The translations under genes were made by a program, and so were the position numbers. Below are positions 560 to 27,013 of a stretch of 64,000 bases of DNA, one piece after another (within the stretch, counting starts at the first letter, position 1; every line of letters starts with the position of its first letter). Origin of the DNA: Sideroxyarcus sp. (lineage in GTDB: Bacteria; Pseudomonadota; Gammaproteobacteria; Burkholderiales; Gallionellaceae). The stretch lies in NCBI GenBank assembly GCA_030651895.1, contig JAUSBR010000010.1, forward strand, positions 124,001-188,000, read 5' to 3'. Under the pieces are notes generated by a model. The model was not told where the DNA came from and did not search any database. It saw only the letters and a program-made list of their open reading frames with translations.

Positions 560-1420
560 CTAGTCGCAGTACTCTTCAAATGTCCACTGGAGAAGTGTTG
601 CGGCCAAGCTGAGGGATGCCCGTGCATCAGCAAGATTCCATTCAATTGAGCTTGTTGTCTCATCAGCATGTTTTGCGGCATGCGTTAAATCTATGAGTGA
701 TTTTCGGATTGCCGTGAATCGTTCTCTTTTATCCCTCTTCTTCTTTTCCGATTGAGCTGGCACACCCTCATCATTTAGAGAACGGTTTAGCGATTCTAGG
801 ACATCGCGACAAGCGCTAACCGCTTCCCTGTAATGCCCGTGCAACATTTGTTTTTGAGCGTTCGCCAAGTGTTTTGTTGCTTCAGCAAAATCTGCGTTGG
901 ATTCATCTGTTGGCACTGGAACTTCTAAGAGAAGTATTTTGCGGTAGTTAATGCTCTCTAGAAGTGTAATCCAATCGCTTTGGCTGACTATAAGCTGATA
1001 TGGTTGCCTATAAAGAGGCTCCGACTTCTCACCTTGATAGGCGGTGGCATAAAGCTCAATCGTAAAAGTTAAATTGCCACCAAGTCGAATTCGTTCGATA
1101 GCCTCAATTCTGGCCGCATCTAGTTCGATTTCAAGGATGATCTGGTGATTTCCCACATGTTCGTATGTTGTTATGGGATAGTTTGAACCTTGGGGTACCA
1201 AGCGACCGAGAAGAGTTGGATTTGATGGAGATGCTATTCCCTGCACATTCAAACGGCCTGAAATGCCGGTAACCGTGATAGGTTGCTCTTTTGGTCTGTT
1301 ATGCGTTGTAACTTTAATTGGGAATACGAGCTGATAAAAGCCCATACCTCTAACACCTTGAGGTTTGTCGGAATCCCATGACGCAAATCTTTGCGTGCCT
1401 AATGTCCAGTCGTTGCTCAT
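560..1420 (-). CDS. Unknown protein with a helical, HEPN-like C-terminal region; probable acquired gene
   Basis: A 286-residue soluble protein that I do not recognise. It has no signal peptide or membrane segment. Residues 1 to about 165 look beta-rich, with many short hydrophobic strands. Residues 180-286 look alpha-helical, with a pattern (A-N-A-Q-K-Q then Y-R-E-A-V-S-A-C-R-D-V-L-E-S-L) that resembles HEPN or similar four-helix domains; this is a resemblance only, and no R-x4-6-H catalytic motif was found. The DNA is clearly richer in A and T than its neighbours. It lies between prmB and hpnC, two ordinary core genes, with a gap of 17 bases on one side and 3 on the other. The composition suggests it was acquired by transfer and now rides in the local transcription unit. 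Confidence 0.7.
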   Translation of the reverse strand: MSNDWTLGTQRFASWDSDKPQGVRGMGFYQLVFPIKVTTHNRPKEQPITVTGISGRLNVQGIASPSNPTLLGRLVPQGSNYPITTYEHVGNHQIILEIELDAARIEAIERIRLGGNLTFTIELYATAYQGEKSEPLYRQPYQLIVSQSDWITLLESINYRKILLLEVPVPTDESNADFAEATKHLANAQKQMLHGHYREAVSACRDVLESLNRSLNDEGVPAQSEKKKRDKRERFTAIRKSLIDLTHAAKHADETTSSIEWNLADARASLSLAATLLQWTFEEYCD

Positions 1421-1421
1421 T

Positions 1422-1440
1422 TAAAAACTCTCAGTTTTTA
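1422..1440. repeat. AT-rich inverted repeat between prmB and the unknown gene
   Basis: TAAAAACT (1422-1429) and AGTTTTTA (1433-1440) form a perfect 8-base stem with a 3-base loop. It contains the prmB stop codon and ends just before the start of the AT-rich gene downstream. It could act as a weak terminator for prmB or mark the edge of an inserted segment; the sequence cannot decide which. Confidence 0.5.
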
Positions 1441-2343
1441 TACCAGATCGTTCCGGTGCAACATGAACACGAATTCATCGCCGGCACTGACATCCATCCA
1501 GGTGAACGGCAGGTTGGGGTAAGCGGCCTCGAGCGCATCGCGGTTATGGCCGATCTCTACCACGAGGATGCCGTTGTTGCTGAGGTGTTCGGCGGCGTGC
1601 TCAAGGATGATGCGTGTCGCATTCAGTCCGTCCGTGCCGCTTCCCAGCGCGAGCTTGGGTTCGTATTTGTATTCTTGCGGCAGTGCGGCGACCGAGGGTG
1701 CATCCACGTAGGGCGGGTTGCTGATGATGAGGTCGTATTTCTTGCCCTCGAGTTTTGCGAACATGTCCGACTCGATCAGCGAGATGTGGTCTTCCAGCGC
1801 GTAATCGGTCACGTTGTACTGGGCGACATCCAGTGCGTCGGCGGACAGATCGACCGCATCGACATGCGCGTCCGGGAAAGCATGCGCTGCCAAAATGGCC
1901 AGGCAGCCGCTGCCGGTGCACAGGTCCAGCACGTTGTGCACGCGCTCGGGATCGCCGATCCAGGGAGAAAGCTGATCGCGCAACAACTCGGCGATGAATG
2001 AGCGCGGCACCAGTACACGTTCATCCACATAGAATGAGAGTTCGCCCAGCCAGGCCTGATTGGTCAGATAGGCGGCCGGGATACGCTGCTCGGTACGCCG
2101 TTCGATGATGTCCAGCACGTCGTAGATCTCGGACTGCGTGAGGCTGGCGTCGAGGAAGGGCTCCAGCCGGTCCAGCGGCAGGTGCAGGGTGTGCAGGATG
2201 AGGTAGGCGGCTTCGTCGTAGGCGTTCTCGCTGCCGTGACCGAAGAACAGCTCGGCTTCGTTGAAGCGGCTCACCGCAAAACGCAGACAATCGCGTACCG
2301 TCTTGAGTGAGGCGCTCGCCTCTGAAAAGTGATTGATGTCCAT
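1438..2343 (-). CDS. prmB: Ribosomal protein L3 N5-glutamine methyltransferase PrmB
   Basis: SAM-dependent methyltransferase of 301 residues that methylates a glutamine side chain of ribosomal protein L3 during 50S assembly (known for the family). The SAM site is seen as LDLCTGSG (139-146), and the glutamine-binding signature is NPPY (209-212), shared with PrmA/PrmC/HemK enzymes. The N-terminal helical domain and the VPRSFIAEL stretch before the Rossmann fold fit PrmB rather than PrmC, which acts on release factors. The ATG at 2343 abuts the TAG of the small upstream gene without a gap, so translation is probably coupled. It is the sixth gene of the minus-strand dap cluster. Confidence 0.9.
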   Translation of the reverse strand: MDINHFSEASASLKTVRDCLRFAVSRFNEAELFFGHGSENAYDEAAYLILHTLHLPLDRLEPFLDASLTQSEIYDVLDIIERRTEQRIPAAYLTNQAWLGELSFYVDERVLVPRSFIAELLRDQLSPWIGDPERVHNVLDLCTGSGCLAILAAHAFPDAHVDAVDLSADALDVAQYNVTDYALEDHISLIESDMFAKLEGKKYDLIISNPPYVDAPSVAALPQEYKYEPKLALGSGTDGLNATRIILEHAAEHLSNNGILVVEIGHNRDALEAAYPNLPFTWMDVSAGDEFVFMLHRNDLV

Positions 2344-2544
2344 CTAGTCTCCTCCGCCCCCGCCATCTCCTCCGCCATCGCTACTGCTGCTATCGTCGCA
2401 GCGCGATGAAGAGTATCCATTGCCCGAATCTCCCGAGCTACCAGTGCTGCCGTTATCGTTATTCGCCCGCCGCCGATTCCTGCGTGTGCCGGACATGAGC
2501 CAGAGCACGATGATGATCAGCAGCAGAACGATATAGATAGTCAT
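2344..2544 (-). CDS. Small single-span membrane protein with a Gly/Ser/Asp-rich tail
   Basis: A 66-residue protein of unknown function. Residues 2-17 are almost entirely Ile, Leu, Val and Trp and form one membrane span. A basic patch (T-R-R-N-R-R-R) follows, which should hold the next part on the cytoplasmic side, and then a low-complexity tail of Ser, Gly and Asp that ends in glycines. The frame sits between dapE (four bases after it) and prmB (zero gap), and this exact packing supports it being a real gene. Low-complexity tails are poorly conserved, so homologues may be hard to detect. Confidence 0.6.
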   Translation of the reverse strand: MTIYIVLLLIIIVLWLMSGTRRNRRRANNDNGSTGSSGDSGNGYSSSRCDDSSSSDGGGDGGGGGD

Positions 2545-2548
2545 TGCT

Positions 2549-4019
<1,471 letters not shown>

Positions 4020-19805: not shown

Positions 19806-20594
19806 ATGATGATGCCGGTCCTGTTCCTTTCACATGGCGCACCGACTTTGCCGCTTGATGAGGGAGAGACGGGTGCTGCTTGGCGCAAGCTCGGCGCGCA
19901 GTTGCCCAGACCTTCTGCGATCCTGGTGATCTCCGCACATTGGGAATCCCATATTGCGACTCTCAGCCGTGCCGTGCAGCCGGACACCATCCACGATTTC
20001 AGCGGCTTTCCGGAAGAGTTGTATCGCATGCAGTATCCCGCTCCCGGCGCACCGCAGATGGCAGAGGTCGCTGCCGAGTTGTTGCAGCAATCCTGCATCG
20101 CGGTGCAGCTCGACGATACGCACGGTCTCGACCACGGTGCCTGGGTTCCGTTGAGCATCATGTTCCCGCAGGCGGATATTCCCGTCGCACAACTCTCATT
20201 GCAGCCGCAACGCGATCCGGCCTGGCATGTCGCCGTGGGCCGTGCATTGAGCCCGTTGCGCGAGCAGGGGGTGCTGATCGTTGGCAGCGGCGCGATCACT
20301 CATAACCTGCGCGCCGTGTTCCAGCATCCGCAAGGCGATCCGGCACCGGTCTGGGTGACGGAATTCCGCGACTGGATCGCGGCCAGGATCAGGGAAGGGG
20401 ATCTGGACGCGCTCTGTGCCTACCGTGCGCACGCGCCCCATGCCGTGCAGAACCATCCTACCGATGAACATCTGTTGCCCTTGTTCGTGGCGATGGGCGC
20501 GGCCTCGAAACTGGAAGATGCCCATCACCTGAATCCGGTGATGACTTTCGGTTTGCTCGCGATGGATGCGTGGCTGTTCAACGGGACAAGCTAA
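19806..20594 (+). CDS. LigB-type extradiol dioxygenase (DODA/YgiD family)
   Basis: A 262-residue member of the class III extradiol ring-cleavage dioxygenase family. The metal ligands are in FLSHGAPT (residues 7-14), I-S-A-H-W-E-S and D-H-G-A-W-V-P, with a fourth conserved His in H-P-T-D-E-H-L-L-P-L. YgiD in E. coli opens 4,5-DOPA; the physiological substrate here is unknown. Three consecutive ATG codons (19806, 19809, 19812) make the exact start uncertain by two residues. It is followed 64 bases later by the FIST gene on the same strand. Confidence 0.87.
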   Translation: MMMPVLFLSHGAPTLPLDEGETGAAWRKLGAQLPRPSAILVISAHWESHIATLSRAVQPDTIHDFSGFPEELYRMQYPAPGAPQMAEVAAELLQQSCIAVQLDDTHGLDHGAWVPLSIMFPQADIPVAQLSLQPQRDPAWHVAVGRALSPLREQGVLIVGSGAITHNLRAVFQHPQGDPAPVWVTEFRDWIAARIREGDLDALCAYRAHAPHAVQNHPTDEHLLPLFVAMGAASKLEDAHHLNPVMTFGLLAMDAWLFNGTS

Positions 20595-20658
20595 AGAAAT
20601 TGAATCTGTGGCCGTTTAGAGTGTTGATGAGTCTGAATCAATGTCGTTGGGAGACGGT

Positions 20659-21813
20659 ATGAGCAAGGCGAGCATGATGTGTTACCTGCCCGGGATAGAG
20701 GCGGGAGAAATCGACAAGAAACTGGCCGAGATGCAGGCGCTGCATCCGAAACTGGGTGTCTGCGCCTTGTTGCCTGAGGCGGAGAAAGACAAGGTCGCCG
20801 TGCTGCAGGCGGCATCCAGCGACCGCAAGGTGCCCATGGTCGGCGGTATCTTCCCGGCACTGGTCCAGGACGGGTATTTCCGGACGGTTGGAGTCTGGTT
20901 GCTGTTCTTCAAAGAAATGCCCTATTTCAGACTCTGCGAAGATCTGCCCAGCGGCGCTGCGGAAGCTGAGCAGTTCGCCGAGAAGCTCTCCGCTGACATC
21001 CGCGCGCAGATCGACCACACCCCCGACATGACACTGTTCATGCTGTTCGACGCCATGGTGCCCAATATCGGCACGCTGCTCGATAACCTCTATCTGCATC
21101 TGGCGAACCGCGTCCACTACGCCGGGGCCAATGCGGGCAGCGAGACGTTCCAGCCCATGCCCTGTCTGTTCGATGGCGAGCGCGTGATACGCAACGGCGT
21201 GTTGCTGATGCTGCTGACACAGCACAAGGGGGCGATCCTGGAACACGGCTACCACACCAATCCGCATACTTCCTATGCGACCTCGACCAACGGCAACTGT
21301 ATCTCGCAGATCGATTGGCAGCCAGCCTTCAAGGTCTACCAGGATCTGGTGCGCGAACATTACGGGGAAGAGGTCACCAAAGAGAACTTCTACCAGTACG
21401 GCGTGCATTTCCCTTTCGGTATCGTGCGCGCCAATCACCATGTGGTGGTGCGCATCCCGGTCATGCTGGCGGAGGACGGTTCGCTGTTCTGCGTGGGCGA
21501 AGTGCCGCCCAATTCGGTACTGACCCTGCTCAAGGCGCCGACCGTGCGCATGGTCGAGACCCTGCATAATCTGACCGAAGGCCTGAAGGCCTTGAACGGC
21601 GATATCAACGATACCGAGTTGCTGCTGTTCTATTGTGCCGGGCGCCGCATGCATCTGGGGATAGAGATGGCGACCGCGGAGTTGGAGGCATTCTCGGGAT
21701 TGACGCAGGCGTCGCAGGTCGCCGGCGCGCTTTCGCTCGGCGAGATCGGCGGTTCGACCGTTCACGGATATCCACTCTTTCACAACGCCACGCTGGTCGC
21801 CGCGCGCTGGTAA
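20659..21813 (+). CDS. FIST-domain sensor protein
   Basis: A 384-residue soluble protein with the FIST N region (about 1-200) and FIST C region (about 210-350). Signature segments include V-P-M-V-G-G-I-F-P-A-L, H-Y-A-G-A-N-A-G-S-E-T-F, and the late F-Y-C-A-G-R-R and S-L-G-E-I-G. FIST domains are ligand sensors; one group (NosP) binds haem and nitric oxide. The gene immediately precedes a PAS-GGDEF-EAL protein (one base between stop and next start), which suggests the ligand state is passed to c-di-GMP turnover. GGGAG stands five bases before the ATG at 20659, so this is preferred over the ATG at 20641. Confidence 0.85.
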   Translation: MSKASMMCYLPGIEAGEIDKKLAEMQALHPKLGVCALLPEAEKDKVAVLQAASSDRKVPMVGGIFPALVQDGYFRTVGVWLLFFKEMPYFRLCEDLPSGAAEAEQFAEKLSADIRAQIDHTPDMTLFMLFDAMVPNIGTLLDNLYLHLANRVHYAGANAGSETFQPMPCLFDGERVIRNGVLLMLLTQHKGAILEHGYHTNPHTSYATSTNGNCISQIDWQPAFKVYQDLVREHYGEEVTKENFYQYGVHFPFGIVRANHHVVVRIPVMLAEDGSLFCVGEVPPNSVLTLLKAPTVRMVETLHNLTEGLKALNGDINDTELLLFYCAGRRMHLGIEMATAELEAFSGLTQASQVAGALSLGEIGGSTVHGYPLFHNATLVAARW

Positions 21814-21814
21814 C

Positions 21815-23998
21815 ATGGGGCGGGATGAAGTACTGCCGGTGTTGTACGACCTCGTTGTCACCATCGGCAGCGAGATCAGCCTCAAGCCGCTGCTGACGCG
21901 CACGCTGCAGCGCTTGCTCTACCACACCTCGTTCTCGGCGGGGTTCATCTGTCTGGATGTCTCTCCCTGCGATCATGAAGGCGGTGTGGTCGAAGTTCAT
22001 CTCGATGCGGCAGTCGGCGATTTCGACCTGATCGGGGAGATCGGCAAGCCCATCCATCTGCCGTGCGCGCTGATCTGTCGGAGCGCCGGTCGCGAAGACG
22101 AGCAGGAGGCTTTGCTTTCCGCACTGCGTTGCACGCAGACGCAATACAAGGCCTATCTCAGGTTGCCGATCGACCAGTGCGGCGTGATCGTGCTGCTGGC
22201 CGCCGAGATACCGGAAACGGACTTGCCGCTGACCACCATGCTGCAGCCGGTGCTGTCGCATCTGGCCAAGGCCATCGTGCTGTGCCGCAGCAACGATGCC
22301 AGTACCAGCGTGCTGGTGAAACAGCGCGACATGCTGGAGCAGGTGTTCGAGAGCAGCTATTCCAGCGTGATGATCACCGATGACCAGGGCAATATCATCG
22401 AGGTCAATCCGGCCTTCACGCGCATCACCGGTTACACGCTGGATGAAGTGCGCGGCAGGAATCCGCACTGCATGGCTTCCGGACGGCATGACAAGCAGTT
22501 CTATCGCGAGATGTGGAGCGACATCACGGAAGCAGGACACTGGGAAGGCGAGATATGGAACCGCCGCAAGGACGGCGAGGTCTTCCCGAGCTGGCTGAGC
22601 ATCAACCAGATCCGCGACAAGAACGGCAAATTGTTGCACTACGTGGGGACTTCCTCGGATATCACCAAGCGCAAGGAAGCCGAGGCGCAGATCCACCAAC
22701 TGGCTTTCTATGATCCATTGACGCAGTTGCCCAATCGCCGCCTGCTGGTTGAGCGCTTGCAGCAGGCTTTCTCGGTCGGCACTCGCAGCGGGCAGCACGG
22801 TGCGGTGCTGTTCCTCGATCTGGACAACTTCAAGACGCTCAACGATACCAAGGGGCACGATACCGGCGACCAGCTGCTGGTCGAGGTGGCGAAACGTCTC
22901 GATGCCTGCGTGCGCGACGGCGACACCGTGGCGCGGCTGGGCGGAGACGAGTTCGTTGTGATACTGGAGTCGCTAAGCACGAAATCGGATGAGGCGGCGG
23001 CACAAGCCGATATGGTCGCGGAAAAGATACGCGATGAGCTGAGCCGTCCGTACCAGCTATCCAATCACGTCCATTACTCGACGCCGAGCATCGGCGTCGT
23101 GCTGTTCCGCGGCAATCTGCAGAGCCTGGACGATGTGCTGAAATACGCCGACACCGCGATGTATCAGGCCAAGACAGCTGGCCGCAACACTATCCGTTTC
23201 TACGATCCGGTGATGCAGGCAGCCATCGAGGCGCGCGCCGAACTTGAAGAGGATCTGCGCCATGCGCTCGAGCGCGACCAGCTCCGTCTGTATTACCAGG
23301 TCCAGATGGATAGCCGGAGGCGCCCTTTCGGAGCGGAAGTGTTGCTGCGCTGGATTCATCCCGAACGCGGTCTGATCCCTCCGGCAAAATTCATCCCGCT
23401 GGCCGAGGAGACAGGGCTTATCGTGCCGATCGGACTGTGGGTGTTGCAGACCGCCTGCGCGCAGCTCAGGCTTTGGCAGAGCAAGGAATCGACGCGCGAT
23501 CTCACTCTGGCAGTCAACGTCAGCGCCAAACAGTTCCGCCGGCCCGATTTCGTCAAACAGGTGCAGCGCACGCTGGTGGAGTCCGGCGCCAGGCCTGCCT
23601 TGCTCAAGCTCGAGCTGACCGAAAGCATCGTGCTGGAGAACGTCGAGGACACTATCTCCAAGATGCGCGAACTCAAGTTGCTGGGCGTGAGCTTCTCGAT
23701 GGACGATTTCGGCACCGGCTATTCCTCGCTGCAGTACCTCAAGCGCTTGCCGCTGGACCAGATCAAGATCGACCAGTCCTTCGTGCGCGACATCGCCAGC
23801 GATCCCAATGATGCCGCCATCGTGCAGACCATCATCGCGATGAGCGAAGTGATGGGGTTGCTCGTCATTGCGGAAGGGGTGGAGACCGAGGAGCAGCGCG
23901 AATTCCTTGATCTGCGCGGCTGCCATGCCTTCCAGGGTTACCTGTTTGGCAAGCCTGTGCCGCTGGAGGAGTTTGAGGTGCAACTGAAAGGCCAGTAG
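21815..23998 (+). CDS. PAS-GGDEF-EAL c-di-GMP protein with EVL variant
   Basis: A cytoplasmic 727-residue protein. The order is: an N-terminal domain of about 165 residues that looks GAF-like, a PAS domain (178-285), a GGDEF domain with an intact RLGGDEF (375-380 region) and inhibitory site R367-x-x-D370, and an EAL domain. The signature Glu-Ala-Leu is replaced by Glu-Val-Leu (508-510), while M-D-D-F-G-T-G-Y-S-S-L and the other EAL loops are kept. The cyclase half should be active. The phosphodiesterase half may be active, since the metal-binding Glu remains. It is one base after the FIST gene and the two probably form a sensor-output pair. Confidence 0.9.
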   Translation: MGRDEVLPVLYDLVVTIGSEISLKPLLTRTLQRLLYHTSFSAGFICLDVSPCDHEGGVVEVHLDAAVGDFDLIGEIGKPIHLPCALICRSAGREDEQEALLSALRCTQTQYKAYLRLPIDQCGVIVLLAAEIPETDLPLTTMLQPVLSHLAKAIVLCRSNDASTSVLVKQRDMLEQVFESSYSSVMITDDQGNIIEVNPAFTRITGYTLDEVRGRNPHCMASGRHDKQFYREMWSDITEAGHWEGEIWNRRKDGEVFPSWLSINQIRDKNGKLLHYVGTSSDITKRKEAEAQIHQLAFYDPLTQLPNRRLLVERLQQAFSVGTRSGQHGAVLFLDLDNFKTLNDTKGHDTGDQLLVEVAKRLDACVRDGDTVARLGGDEFVVILESLSTKSDEAAAQADMVAEKIRDELSRPYQLSNHVHYSTPSIGVVLFRGNLQSLDDVLKYADTAMYQAKTAGRNTIRFYDPVMQAAIEARAELEEDLRHALERDQLRLYYQVQMDSRRRPFGAEVLLRWIHPERGLIPPAKFIPLAEETGLIVPIGLWVLQTACAQLRLWQSKESTRDLTLAVNVSAKQFRRPDFVKQVQRTLVESGARPALLKLELTESIVLENVEDTISKMRELKLLGVSFSMDDFGTGYSSLQYLKRLPLDQIKIDQSFVRDIASDPNDAAIVQTIIAMSEVMGLLVIAEGVETEEQREFLDLRGCHAFQGYLFGKPVPLEEFEVQLKGQ

Positions 23999-24062
23999 TA
24001 TGTCGCTGTCAGGTAGCGACGGAGCAGGGCCGTGGTGGTGAATCGAAAAACGGAAGAACGAG

Positions 24063-25310
24063 ATGTCTACCTATAACGTCAATTTGCATGAGGCGATCTA
24101 TTCCCTGTCCGACGCGCTCGATCTGGTCGGCGTCACCCATATCCATCACGGCAAACGCGTCGCCTACATGGCCACCGAATGCGGCAAACAACTGGGTTGG
24201 AGTGGCCCCAGGCTGGACGAGTTGTTCCAGGCGGCCATCCTGCACGACAGCGGCGTGTCCCGAACCATGGTTCATGCAAACCTGGCGCAGATGGCCTGGG
24301 AGAACGAGGCGGAGCACTGCAAGCTGGGCGCCGAACTGCTGGCCAGCAGTCCGCTGCTGGAACACCTGTCGGACACCGTCCTGCAGCACCACACGCACTG
24401 GTCCGCGCTCAGGGATATGGATCTGCCGCTGGAAGTGAAGTTGCGGGCGAACTGCATCTACATGGTCGACCGCGTCGATGTGCTTGCCCTGTCTTATCAG
24501 CTCGAAGGCAAGGAGATATTGCTGGGCAAGGACGAGATCAGGGACAAGATAGTCAAGCGTCGCGGCGACTGGTTCTGTCCGGAGCTGGTCGATGCATTTC
24601 TGGCAGTCTCGTGCTCGGACGCATTCTGGTTCACGTTGGAAGGCGGCCATGTCAATGGCTACCTGGCGACCTGGTTGTCGCATTATCCGGACCGGAACAT
24701 GGAATTCCACGAGTTGCGAAGTCTGGTCCATGTCTTCTCCAGCATCGTCGATGCGAAGAGCCCGTTCACCAAGCAACATTCCGACGGGGTGGCCAATCTG
24801 GCGCGTTATCTCGGCGGTCTGTTCGAATTGCCGGAAGAGGCCTGTGAATTGCTAGAACTGGTCGGGTTGCTGCACGATATCGGCAAGTTGCGCGTGCCGG
24901 ACGAGTTGCTGGACAAGCCGGGCGAACTGAGCGAGGCCGAGACACTCATCATGCGCCAGCATTGTTTCGACACCTACAGCATCCTGAAGAACATCCGCGG
25001 GCTGGAGCGCGTCAGCCTGTGGGCTTTGCAGCACCACGAACGCATGGACGGCACCGGCTATCCCAATCACACCAAGGGTGTCGATCTCTCATTCGAGGCA
25101 CGCATCGTCGCAGTATCCGACGTGTTCCAGGCGTTGGCCCAGGCGCGTCCCTACCGCGGCCCGCTAGAGCAGGATGTCATCATGATGCTGCTCAGGATAC
25201 AGGCAGATGCAGGCAAGCTAGACGAGCGGATCGTTTCGAAGGTCGAACAGAACCTGTCGGCATGCTGGAATGCCGCCGTGAACCAGTCGACCTGGATGGT
25301 GATGAAATGA
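24063..25310 (+). CDS. Tandem HD / HD-GYP phosphodiesterase
   Basis: A 415-residue soluble protein with two HD-type halves. The first (about 20-140) has H61-D62 and H-H at 109-110 but no GYP. The second (about 220-400) has the full set: LHDIGKLRVP (270-279) and HHERMDGTGYP (324-334), the signature of c-di-GMP-degrading HD-GYP enzymes. No sensory or response-regulator domain was seen, so it may take input from a neighbouring protein. It lies 64 bases after the GGDEF-EAL gene and its stop overlaps the next start by four bases. The first half is presumably regulatory. Confidence 0.88.
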   Translation: MSTYNVNLHEAIYSLSDALDLVGVTHIHHGKRVAYMATECGKQLGWSGPRLDELFQAAILHDSGVSRTMVHANLAQMAWENEAEHCKLGAELLASSPLLEHLSDTVLQHHTHWSALRDMDLPLEVKLRANCIYMVDRVDVLALSYQLEGKEILLGKDEIRDKIVKRRGDWFCPELVDAFLAVSCSDAFWFTLEGGHVNGYLATWLSHYPDRNMEFHELRSLVHVFSSIVDAKSPFTKQHSDGVANLARYLGGLFELPEEACELLELVGLLHDIGKLRVPDELLDKPGELSEAETLIMRQHCFDTYSILKNIRGLERVSLWALQHHERMDGTGYPNHTKGVDLSFEARIVAVSDVFQALAQARPYRGPLEQDVIMMLLRIQADAGKLDERIVSKVEQNLSACWNAAVNQSTWMVMK

Positions 25311-27013
25311 AGCTGAGCAGCAGATTCTATATTTTGCTGTCGGGTATTTTCCTGAGCTACAGTGTGATTTCCTGGCTGGTGTTCAGGGATATGGTGCATG
25401 AGATAAACCAGCAATGGGGGCGGCAGTTCGCCGAAAGACAAGTTCTGTTCGATAAATATAGAACGCTTTCACCGCTGATCCGCGAGATCAGGCTGGCTCG
25501 ACAGATGGCGCTCGAACCCGCGCTGATCGAAATGGCGTTGCACGAGGATGATGCGGAAGTGAGACGCCGTGCGACCAGAGTGATGGAGCGTTACCGTTTC
25601 GATTTTCGTGATCACAGTTATTTCGCGGCATTCGCTCGCAGCGGGAGCTACTATTTCAACGATGCAGCAGGCCACTATTCGAACAAGCAGTACCGATACA
25701 CCCTCTCCCCGCGCGCGAAAAGCGATTATTGGTTCTACGCGACGCTAAGGAGCGGCACGGACTATCAAGTGAATCTTGACCCTGACGTACATCTGGGCGT
25801 GGTGAAGGTCTGGATCAATGTATTGCTCAAGAACGGCGACGAGGTCCTTGGCGTGATCGGTACCGGTATCGACCTGTCCGAGTTTCTGAAGGAAAGTGTG
25901 GATATCAACCAGGAAGGGGTGGAGACTTTCTTTGTTGACAGGAGTATGGCTATCCAGCTATCCGCCGACCCCACACTGATCGACTATGCCAGCATCGCCA
26001 AGACGGTGGGTGAACGCATCAAGGTTGATGCCCTGCTGAAAAATCCCGCGGATATAGAAAAATTACGGCAGACGGCGGAATACCTCGAGCACCATGCCGG
26101 TGAAGTTGCCACGCTATGGGTGGATTATCGGGGCGACAAGCGTCTGCTTGGCATTTCCTATCTACCCGAGGTCGGCTGGTTTGATCTGACCCTGATGGAT
26201 GAGAAGAGCCTGATGGTGATTCACGGATTTGCCTGGTTGCCGCTGTTGTTCGGAAGCATATTCATGCTTGGCCTGCTGATATTGGGACTGTTGCTGAATC
26301 ACTGGGTGTTGCGACCGATCCACAGGTTGACCAAGGCGACCGAGCAGGTCCGGAAGGGCAATTATGAGGTCGAACTGCCCATCGTGGGGAAAGGCGAGAT
26401 CTCGGAGCTTTCCCGCTCATTCTGGCGGATGGTTGAGTTCATTCATCACACCAATGAAGAGTTGGAAAGCAAAGTGAAGGAACGCACCGAAGATTTGCAG
26501 CGGTTGACAGAGATCGACTACCTGACCGGCTTGCTCAACCGGCGCGGCATGATGGATAAGCTGGAGCAGGAGGTTGCACGCCAGGCTCGCCAAGGCGGTT
26601 CAATGGGGCTGCTGCTGCTGGATCTGGATCACTTCAAAGCTGTCAACGATACCTATGGCCATGAAGCTGGCGATCTCGCCTTGTGCGCGGCGGCCAATGT
26701 GCTGCGTTCCATGAAGCGCAGCTACGATCATGCGGGTCGCTGGGGTGGAGAGGAATTCATCCTGCTTCTGCCGGAATGCGATGAGGATGAACTGGTTTCG
26801 ATCGCAGAGCGGATCCGCGAGGCGGTGCAGTCTTTGCGTATCGATACGGGGACGCGCTCTTTCTCTTTCACTACCAGTATCGGCGCCCACCATCCCAGCA
26901 CCCCGCAGACGCTGGATGCAATGCTGCAACTGGCTGACAAGGCCCTGTACGCCGCAAAAGACGCAGGACGCAACTGCGTGCGTCTGGCGAGTCAGTCTGC
27001 GCGGGAGAATTGA
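25307..27013 (+). CDS. Membrane-bound diguanylate cyclase with Cache-like sensor (GGEEF)
   Basis: A 568-residue protein. A transmembrane span at 7-26 and another at about 308-331 enclose a periplasmic sensor of about 280 residues with dCache-like segments (F-R-D-H-S-Y-F, S-D-Y-W-F-Y-A-T, V-L-G-V-I-G-T-G-I-D-L). A HAMP linker (331-385), a short coiled coil and a GGDEF domain follow, with GGEEF at 480-484 and inhibitory site R471-x-x-D474. It should make c-di-GMP in response to an extracellular small molecule. Translation is coupled to the HD-GYP gene through an ATGA overlap, so a synthesising and a degrading enzyme are made together. Confidence 0.9.
   Translation: MKLSSRFYILLSGIFLSYSVISWLVFRDMVHEINQQWGRQFAERQVLFDKYRTLSPLIREIRLARQMALEPALIEMALHEDDAEVRRRATRVMERYRFDFRDHSYFAAFARSGSYYFNDAAGHYSNKQYRYTLSPRAKSDYWFYATLRSGTDYQVNLDPDVHLGVVKVWINVLLKNGDEVLGVIGTGIDLSEFLKESVDINQEGVETFFVDRSMAIQLSADPTLIDYASIAKTVGERIKVDALLKNPADIEKLRQTAEYLEHHAGEVATLWVDYRGDKRLLGISYLPEVGWFDLTLMDEKSLMVIHGFAWLPLLFGSIFMLGLLILGLLLNHWVLRPIHRLTKATEQVRKGNYEVELPIVGKGEISELSRSFWRMVEFIHHTNEELESKVKERTEDLQRLTEIDYLTGLLNRRGMMDKLEQEVARQARQGGSMGLLLLDLDHFKAVNDTYGHEAGDLALCAAANVLRSMKRSYDHAGRWGGEEFILLLPECDEDELVSIAERIREAVQSLRIDTGTRSFSFTTSIGAHHPSTPQTLDAMLQLADKALYAAKDAGRNCVRLASQSAREN

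Follow-up and report, generated by a model that had tools for sequence, protein, structure and literature searches.

The locus described here, in which the gene of a FIST-domain sensor is followed on the same strand by three genes for enzymes of c-di-GMP turnover, raises the question of which of these genes form a unit, and of how the sensor could reach an enzyme. On the coupling of FIST sensors with kinases and c-di-GMP enzymes, the excerpted text of a 2022 review describes how little is known about binding and about signal propagation (PMC8846402). The locus lies in a window (the whole stretch of 64,000 nucleotides that was analyzed) from a Gallionellaceae-like draft genome of 2.13 Mb that is 73% complete. 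The original prediction described a complete four-gene module with a shorter-looking FIST protein and discussed it beside the NosP group; its link between the FIST and the GGDEF-EAL gene stands, whereas neither the module nor a NosP grouping is supported and the FIST is no short form.

Gene content of the locus

The four consecutive genes are all open on the + strand, where the prediction had placed them. The first (20659..21813, +, the stop codon ending at 21813) encodes a stand-alone FIST/FIST_C protein of 384 aa, whose Pfam matches of 50.7 and 78.4 bits, against cut-offs of 23.2 and 28.5, place it in the FIST/FIST_C superfamily. Comprising FIST-N plus FIST_C it is full length, and not the shorter-looking form it had been taken for. 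The reading frame opens at 20641, but the likely start is ATG 20659, the coordinate given previously, which is preceded by GGGAG (20649-20653) five bases upstream. The nearest fold in the PDB is that of human FBXO22 (TM 0.43 by query length), and the closest named relatives come from Gallionellaceae/Sideroxydans MAGs. A fifth gene on the same strand, LigB/4,5-DOPA-extradiol-dioxygenase-like (19806..20594, +), lies 64 bases upstream; it precedes FIST in 5 of the 15 relatives that have an upstream aldo-keto reductase gene in common.

The second gene (21815-23998, +) begins, as had been claimed, one base past the FIST stop (21815 vs 21813) and shows Pfam matches to PAS (residues 173-285; 22331..22669, +), GGDEF (residues 297-458; 22703..23188, +) and EAL (residues 479-714; 23249..23956, +). 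The GGDEF motif and the RxxD I-site are intact, EVL replaces EAL, the remaining EAL-side motifs are present, and judged by these motifs the protein probably qualifies as both a GGDEF and an EAL enzyme. Ahead of these domains, residues 1-167 (21815..22315, +) form a cryptic domain of predicted GAF fold, which we propose as the FIST adaptor. The third gene (24063..25310, +), 64 bases further downstream, encodes the predicted tandem HD/HD-GYP protein of 415 aa, with two HD_5 stretches in Pfam and with HDIG and HHERMDGTGYP read in its translation, so that both the HD and the GYP motif are present. The fourth (25307..27013, +) overlaps it by the expected 4 bases (ATGA) and encodes a membrane diguanylate cyclase (GGEEF) of 568 aa, with hydrophobic stretches around positions 7-27 and 301-338 of the protein, a HAMP domain at 329-377 and a GGDEF domain at 403-556. 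Altogether, the c-di-GMP enzyme motifs of the locus look intact.

The N-terminal half of the fourth protein is SiaA-like (NF038263, 1.4e-90, 304.7 bits, under the cut-off of 700), and SiaD is among the best NCBIfam matches of its GGDEF domain, also below the model cut-off. The Pseudomonas aeruginosa pathway uses SiaA, B, C and D, according to the available portions of two reports (PMC7278518, PMC7647112). As opposed to that pathway, the fourth gene joins sensor and cyclase in one chain, and Pfam detects no PP2C domain in it. SiaC is present in 2 of the 61 genomes searched, but in none of the 37 of the same family (our own and 36 others, several of them incomplete drafts), and was discarded as a missing partner. 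With neither the PP2C domain nor the SiaC partner that mark SiaA and SiaABCD found, the fourth gene looks, from its sequence, like a one-chain form of the pathway.

The conserved pair and its optional neighbours

Strong FIST orthologues (at least 64% identity) occur in 24 of the 61 genomes searched, own included. Of the 23 loci fetched from relatives with FIST, 22 have an adaptor-bearing gene behind it at a distance of -1 to +34 nt, as do 24 of the 25 fetched from GTDB in the same way; the two sets overlap and were counted separately, and the one miss in each (L046 and L070) is a locus cut by a contig end. Synteny of FIST with the GGDEF-EAL gene had been named as the check on which the prediction could fail, and since FIST keeps a gene with this N-terminal domain behind it, the test gives no refutation.

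The linkage extends across the order, where a profile search found 32 adaptor copies in 30 of 399 genomes, 27 of them directly behind a near-full-length FIST gene and one (L140) behind a FIST that the contig end truncates. Of the other four, two follow a partial FIST (L128, L155) and two have no adjacent FIST (L129, L154). At class level, with a single sequence as query, 5 of 369 genomes carry the adaptor and all four non-own copies lie behind FIST; in the phylum it was found in 4 of 349 genomes, with 3/3 non-own copies behind FIST. A sister FIST pair, represented by L060 on contig 11 and by L058 in G005, has a divergent adaptor, detected by profile-profile comparison (P 7e-7, probability 85%, 165 columns). 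Only FIST and the next gene are a conserved unit.

The exceptional copies differ among themselves. In L128 (4485-4649, genome G763) only about the last 62 FIST residues remain before the adaptor, a C-terminal remnant, while L155 (1471-2566, G449) holds FIST residues 130-381 and then a partial adaptor. The FIST-less adaptor of L129 (2492-5311) sits on a multi-PAS HD-GYP protein, with flanks that by eye resemble glmU and ATP synthase subunits, and its genome, G013, also has a FIST pair.

Concerning the two other genes, the view of a complete four-gene module had to be given up: the HD-GYP and cyclase genes come and go near FIST and also occur without it, which rules out the four as a conserved unit. 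In the 14 relatives with a FIST 71-94% identical and with sequence continuing behind the pair, the HD-GYP gene comes next in 10 and the cyclase also in 6. Orthologues of the HD-GYP protein (at least 61% identity) are found in 23 of the 61 genomes, near FIST in 14 and not near it in 9, and those of the cyclase (at least 58% identity) in 19, near FIST in 12 and not near it in 7, a few of these separations coming from drafts in which the genes lie on different contigs. The full order is present in 7 genomes including our own; in one of them, G007, a frameshift near residue 600 breaks the GGDEF-EAL gene in two (L037/L064). There is also a second genomic context, with the cyclase 5.5-6.8 kb from the FIST gene in 5 loci and HD-GYP near it in 2. 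Five loci (L050, L052, L054, L055 and L056) show the FIST pair among two to three more GGDEF-EAL matches and a SiaA-like cyclase, i.e. a c-di-GMP gene cluster in which HD-GYP is sometimes included. On contig C14 of G014 (283471-285924) orthologues of HD-GYP and the SiaA-like cyclase lie side by side, and the contig has no FIST match.

What stands behind the adaptor changes as well, being GGDEF-EAL, HD-GYP or a histidine kinase, the last sometimes with receivers. Traced on a tree of 33 FISTs (with 20 GGDEF-EAL, 9 kinase and 4 HD-GYP outputs; L155 was kept in the trees despite its partial FIST), the output type takes 10 changes against a shuffled mean of 11.5. Hence, output shows almost no dependence on FIST ancestry, whereas FIST and adaptor stay paired; if only starred branches are counted, the GGDEF-EAL label must still change at least 4 times. 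Plasmid DNA searched with a locus that includes a kinase yielded no match of use.

The predicted fold of the proposed adaptor and the FIST clades

Residues 1-167 escape sequence-based recognition: none of the 21 members compared with the Pfam GAF models gave a match, even at E values as high as 10, and a sequence search of the PDB returned no match. The AlphaFold2 model of this segment (pLDDT 87.3), compared by Foldseek, hits the PtsP-type GAF domain 3ci6 at E 6.3e-7 and 170 chains at E <=0.001, so that a GAF fold is predicted. The likeness to PtsP-type GAF domains (3ci6, 3trc) is one of predicted fold, at an identity of only 15-18%; the near folds also include 5w10, a cAMP-bound GAF. No description of the adaptor was found in the accessible portions of the openly licensed literature on FIST, NosP and GAF/GGDEF. 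Over the 59 of 66 copies kept, helices 1 and 2 and strand 6 are the most conserved parts, strands 1 and 5 and helix 5 come next, and segments 48-57 and 84-110 are the least conserved. Small-molecule binding and dimerisation are both common among GAF domains, and in their topology we take the helices to be the dimer or contact face and the variable part of the adaptor to line the ligand pocket. On this assumption, conserved helices with a variable pocket side would suit a contact role, though the helices could be a dimer face instead.

The FIST protein itself is set apart by its invariant residues. Across 20 window-type FISTs, H202, H256, H338, C175 and C284 (numbering from 20641) do not vary, whereas among 23 other FISTs C175, H256, H338 and C284 are found in 0-1 sequences and H202 in 4. 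The rarity of these residues elsewhere makes a different cofactor or signal plausible. It should be noted that the alignments (A1, 21 loci; A2, 20 loci) are hand-picked subsets, that 9 of the 32 candidate FIST loci were dropped, and that L053, whose FIST is intact, was omitted from A2 because its supplied coordinates began upstream of the start codon and included a stop.

Among the known systems closest to this one is that of the NosP proteins. The available excerpts of one report state that NosP binds NosK and that about 130 N-terminal residues of NosK carry no recognised sensor domain (PMC12570481). The NosP-NosK/NahK-NosR system likewise places the gene of a stand-alone FIST immediately ahead of that of the signalling partner and has a c-di-GMP output. 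However, the partner in the window is not a histidine kinase (NosK/NahK) but a PAS-GGDEF-EAL enzyme that begins with the predicted GAF fold, the pair includes neither a kinase nor a response regulator, and the FIST differs both in its clade and in its invariant residues; some relatives of the window FIST do have kinase partners. Homology between the NosK N-terminus and the adaptor was considered and rejected at the level of sequence comparison, with no HMM match up to E 10 and a profile-profile P of about 0.8-0.9.

NosR loci proved a poor guide to NosP, FIST being present in 3 of the 20 regions fetched; the other 17 contribute no tree row. The three (L215, L223 and L231) combine a NosR over the model cut-off, FIST and a histidine kinase, and the window-type FIST model gives 15.4 and 20.9 bits on two of their FISTs and no match on the third. 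In a tree of 59 rows, which is one quick tree with long branches flagged, also at the join of its two halves, the window FIST falls outside the clades of the FISTs beside NosR and kinase (SH-aLRT 100), so that a grouping with NosP is not supported. The same genome holds two further FISTs, on contigs C15 and C5, in the clades to which those of L215, L223 and L231 belong. Three consecutive FIST matches were seen on contig C612 of G136 (583-3779).

Outside the window clade the proteins encoded after FIST begin differently. Those after NosP-type FISTs carry an N-terminal element of ~65 residues (LLxRQL...Y...D...RSLxxSSxE; L215, L223, L235, L238, L242-L245, L247 and L061, the C15 locus of this genome), and the partners of another FIST clade a coiled-coil-like N-terminal element (KIN..L..RVE...VRERT..L; L231, L239, L241, L246, L248, L249, L250 and L062, the C5 locus of this genome). 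On the 59-row tree the GAF label (34 rows) marks one clade with support 100, although 21 of these rows were found through the adaptor, so that their label is not independent, and L058, L060 and L059 received theirs from a model for which L058 and L060 were the source, L059 at only 20 bits. The second element (8 rows) also marks one clade (support 96), the first (10 rows) takes two changes, and rows with no recognised element (7) take four; since 9 and 7 of the rows so labelled had gone into the two element models, only L235 and L062 are independent. Taken over all labels, partner N-terminus changes 4 times on the 59 rows, where shuffling gives a mean of 23.4. FIST clade and partner N-terminus thus largely co-segregate.

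A probable two-protein sensor and the alternatives

The object of interest is the pair of FIST and GAF adaptor, not the four-gene set, and the joint travel of the two with a swapped output suggests a plug-in two-protein sensor. We consider it probable that the two proteins form a cytoplasmic sensor, in which FIST docks on a GAF adaptor of its own and the adaptor drives exchangeable outputs. The FIST protein would take up a signal and dock on the GAF-fold N-terminus of the PAS-GGDEF-EAL enzyme, and this docking would shift the balance of the enzyme between making and breaking c-di-GMP. FIST and adaptor would be the constant input unit and the part behind the adaptor the exchangeable one, while the HD/HD-GYP gene and the SiaA-like cyclase may be separately mobile c-di-GMP genes that share the cluster in this clade. 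The sequence data show the linkage of the genes, the exchange of outputs, the separate FIST clade, the predicted GAF fold and the enzyme motifs, and from these we infer the physical docking, the direction of control, the ligand and co-transcription. The two FIST-less adaptors (L129, L154) and the two with a partial FIST (L128, L155) count against this reading.

Comparable arrangements are known. In Vibrio cholerae CdpA, which has a GGDEF part, FIST input likewise comes before a c-di-GMP enzyme without a kinase; the window differs by having two separate proteins and an extra adaptor domain. CdpA is a phosphodiesterase with FIST-FIST_C whose EAL domain is inhibited by haem, and in H-NOX pairs with a cyclase or phosphodiesterase (SwH-NOX/SwDGC) a separate sensor likewise acts on a c-di-GMP enzyme, both according to excerpts of the 2022 review (PMC8846402), but the H-NOX sensor belongs to another family (haem HNOB domain).

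Could the window FIST simply be a strict NosP, binding b-type haem, sensing NO and setting c-di-GMP via the neighbouring enzymes? Such a role would agree with the shared superfamily, with the excerpted reports of NosP proteins working beside c-di-GMP enzymes or kinases (PMC12570481, PMC8846402), and with NosR as the top NCBIfam match of the HD-GYP half (NF053512, 121.9 bits, under the cut-off of 400). We nevertheless find it unlikely, given that the FISTs of L215, L223 and L231 match the window-type model poorly and sit in other clades, that four of the five invariant residues are nearly absent, and H202 rare, in other FISTs, and that this genome already has two FISTs (C15, C5) in NosR-associated clades.

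Less probable again is that the GAF domain itself senses a small molecule which FIST makes, carries or removes, with no binding between the two proteins. The frequent ligand binding of GAF domains and the cAMP-bound 5w10 among the near folds speak for it; yet the least conserved segments presumably lie on the pocket side, and the quite different partner N-termini that other FIST clades have in the same place would suit docking better. We give the least credence to a dedicated module of all four genes, with FIST and the SiaA-like sensor jointly setting c-di-GMP. The tight spacing, the seven genomes with the full order and the recurrence of cyclase and HD-GYP near FIST in the second context would fit it, but there the cyclase lies kilobases away, both genes are found apart from FIST in a good part of the genomes that have them, and in G014 they are together on a contig where FIST was not found.

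As regards the pair, the pattern may be wider than this clade. It is possible, and we put it forward tentatively, that each FIST clade has its own partner N-terminus grafted onto kinases and c-di-GMP enzymes, whether GAF-fold, short and helical-looking or coiled-coil-like, as a general plug-in sensor, and that the window clade, which has invariant histidines and cysteines of its own, reads a cofactor or signal different from that of NosP. A defined adaptor of 167 residues, kept beside FIST as outputs are exchanged, points to the probable site of contact, which two small proteins would suffice to test. If this is true, kinases and c-di-GMP enzymes with unexplained N-termini would become predicted FIST partners.
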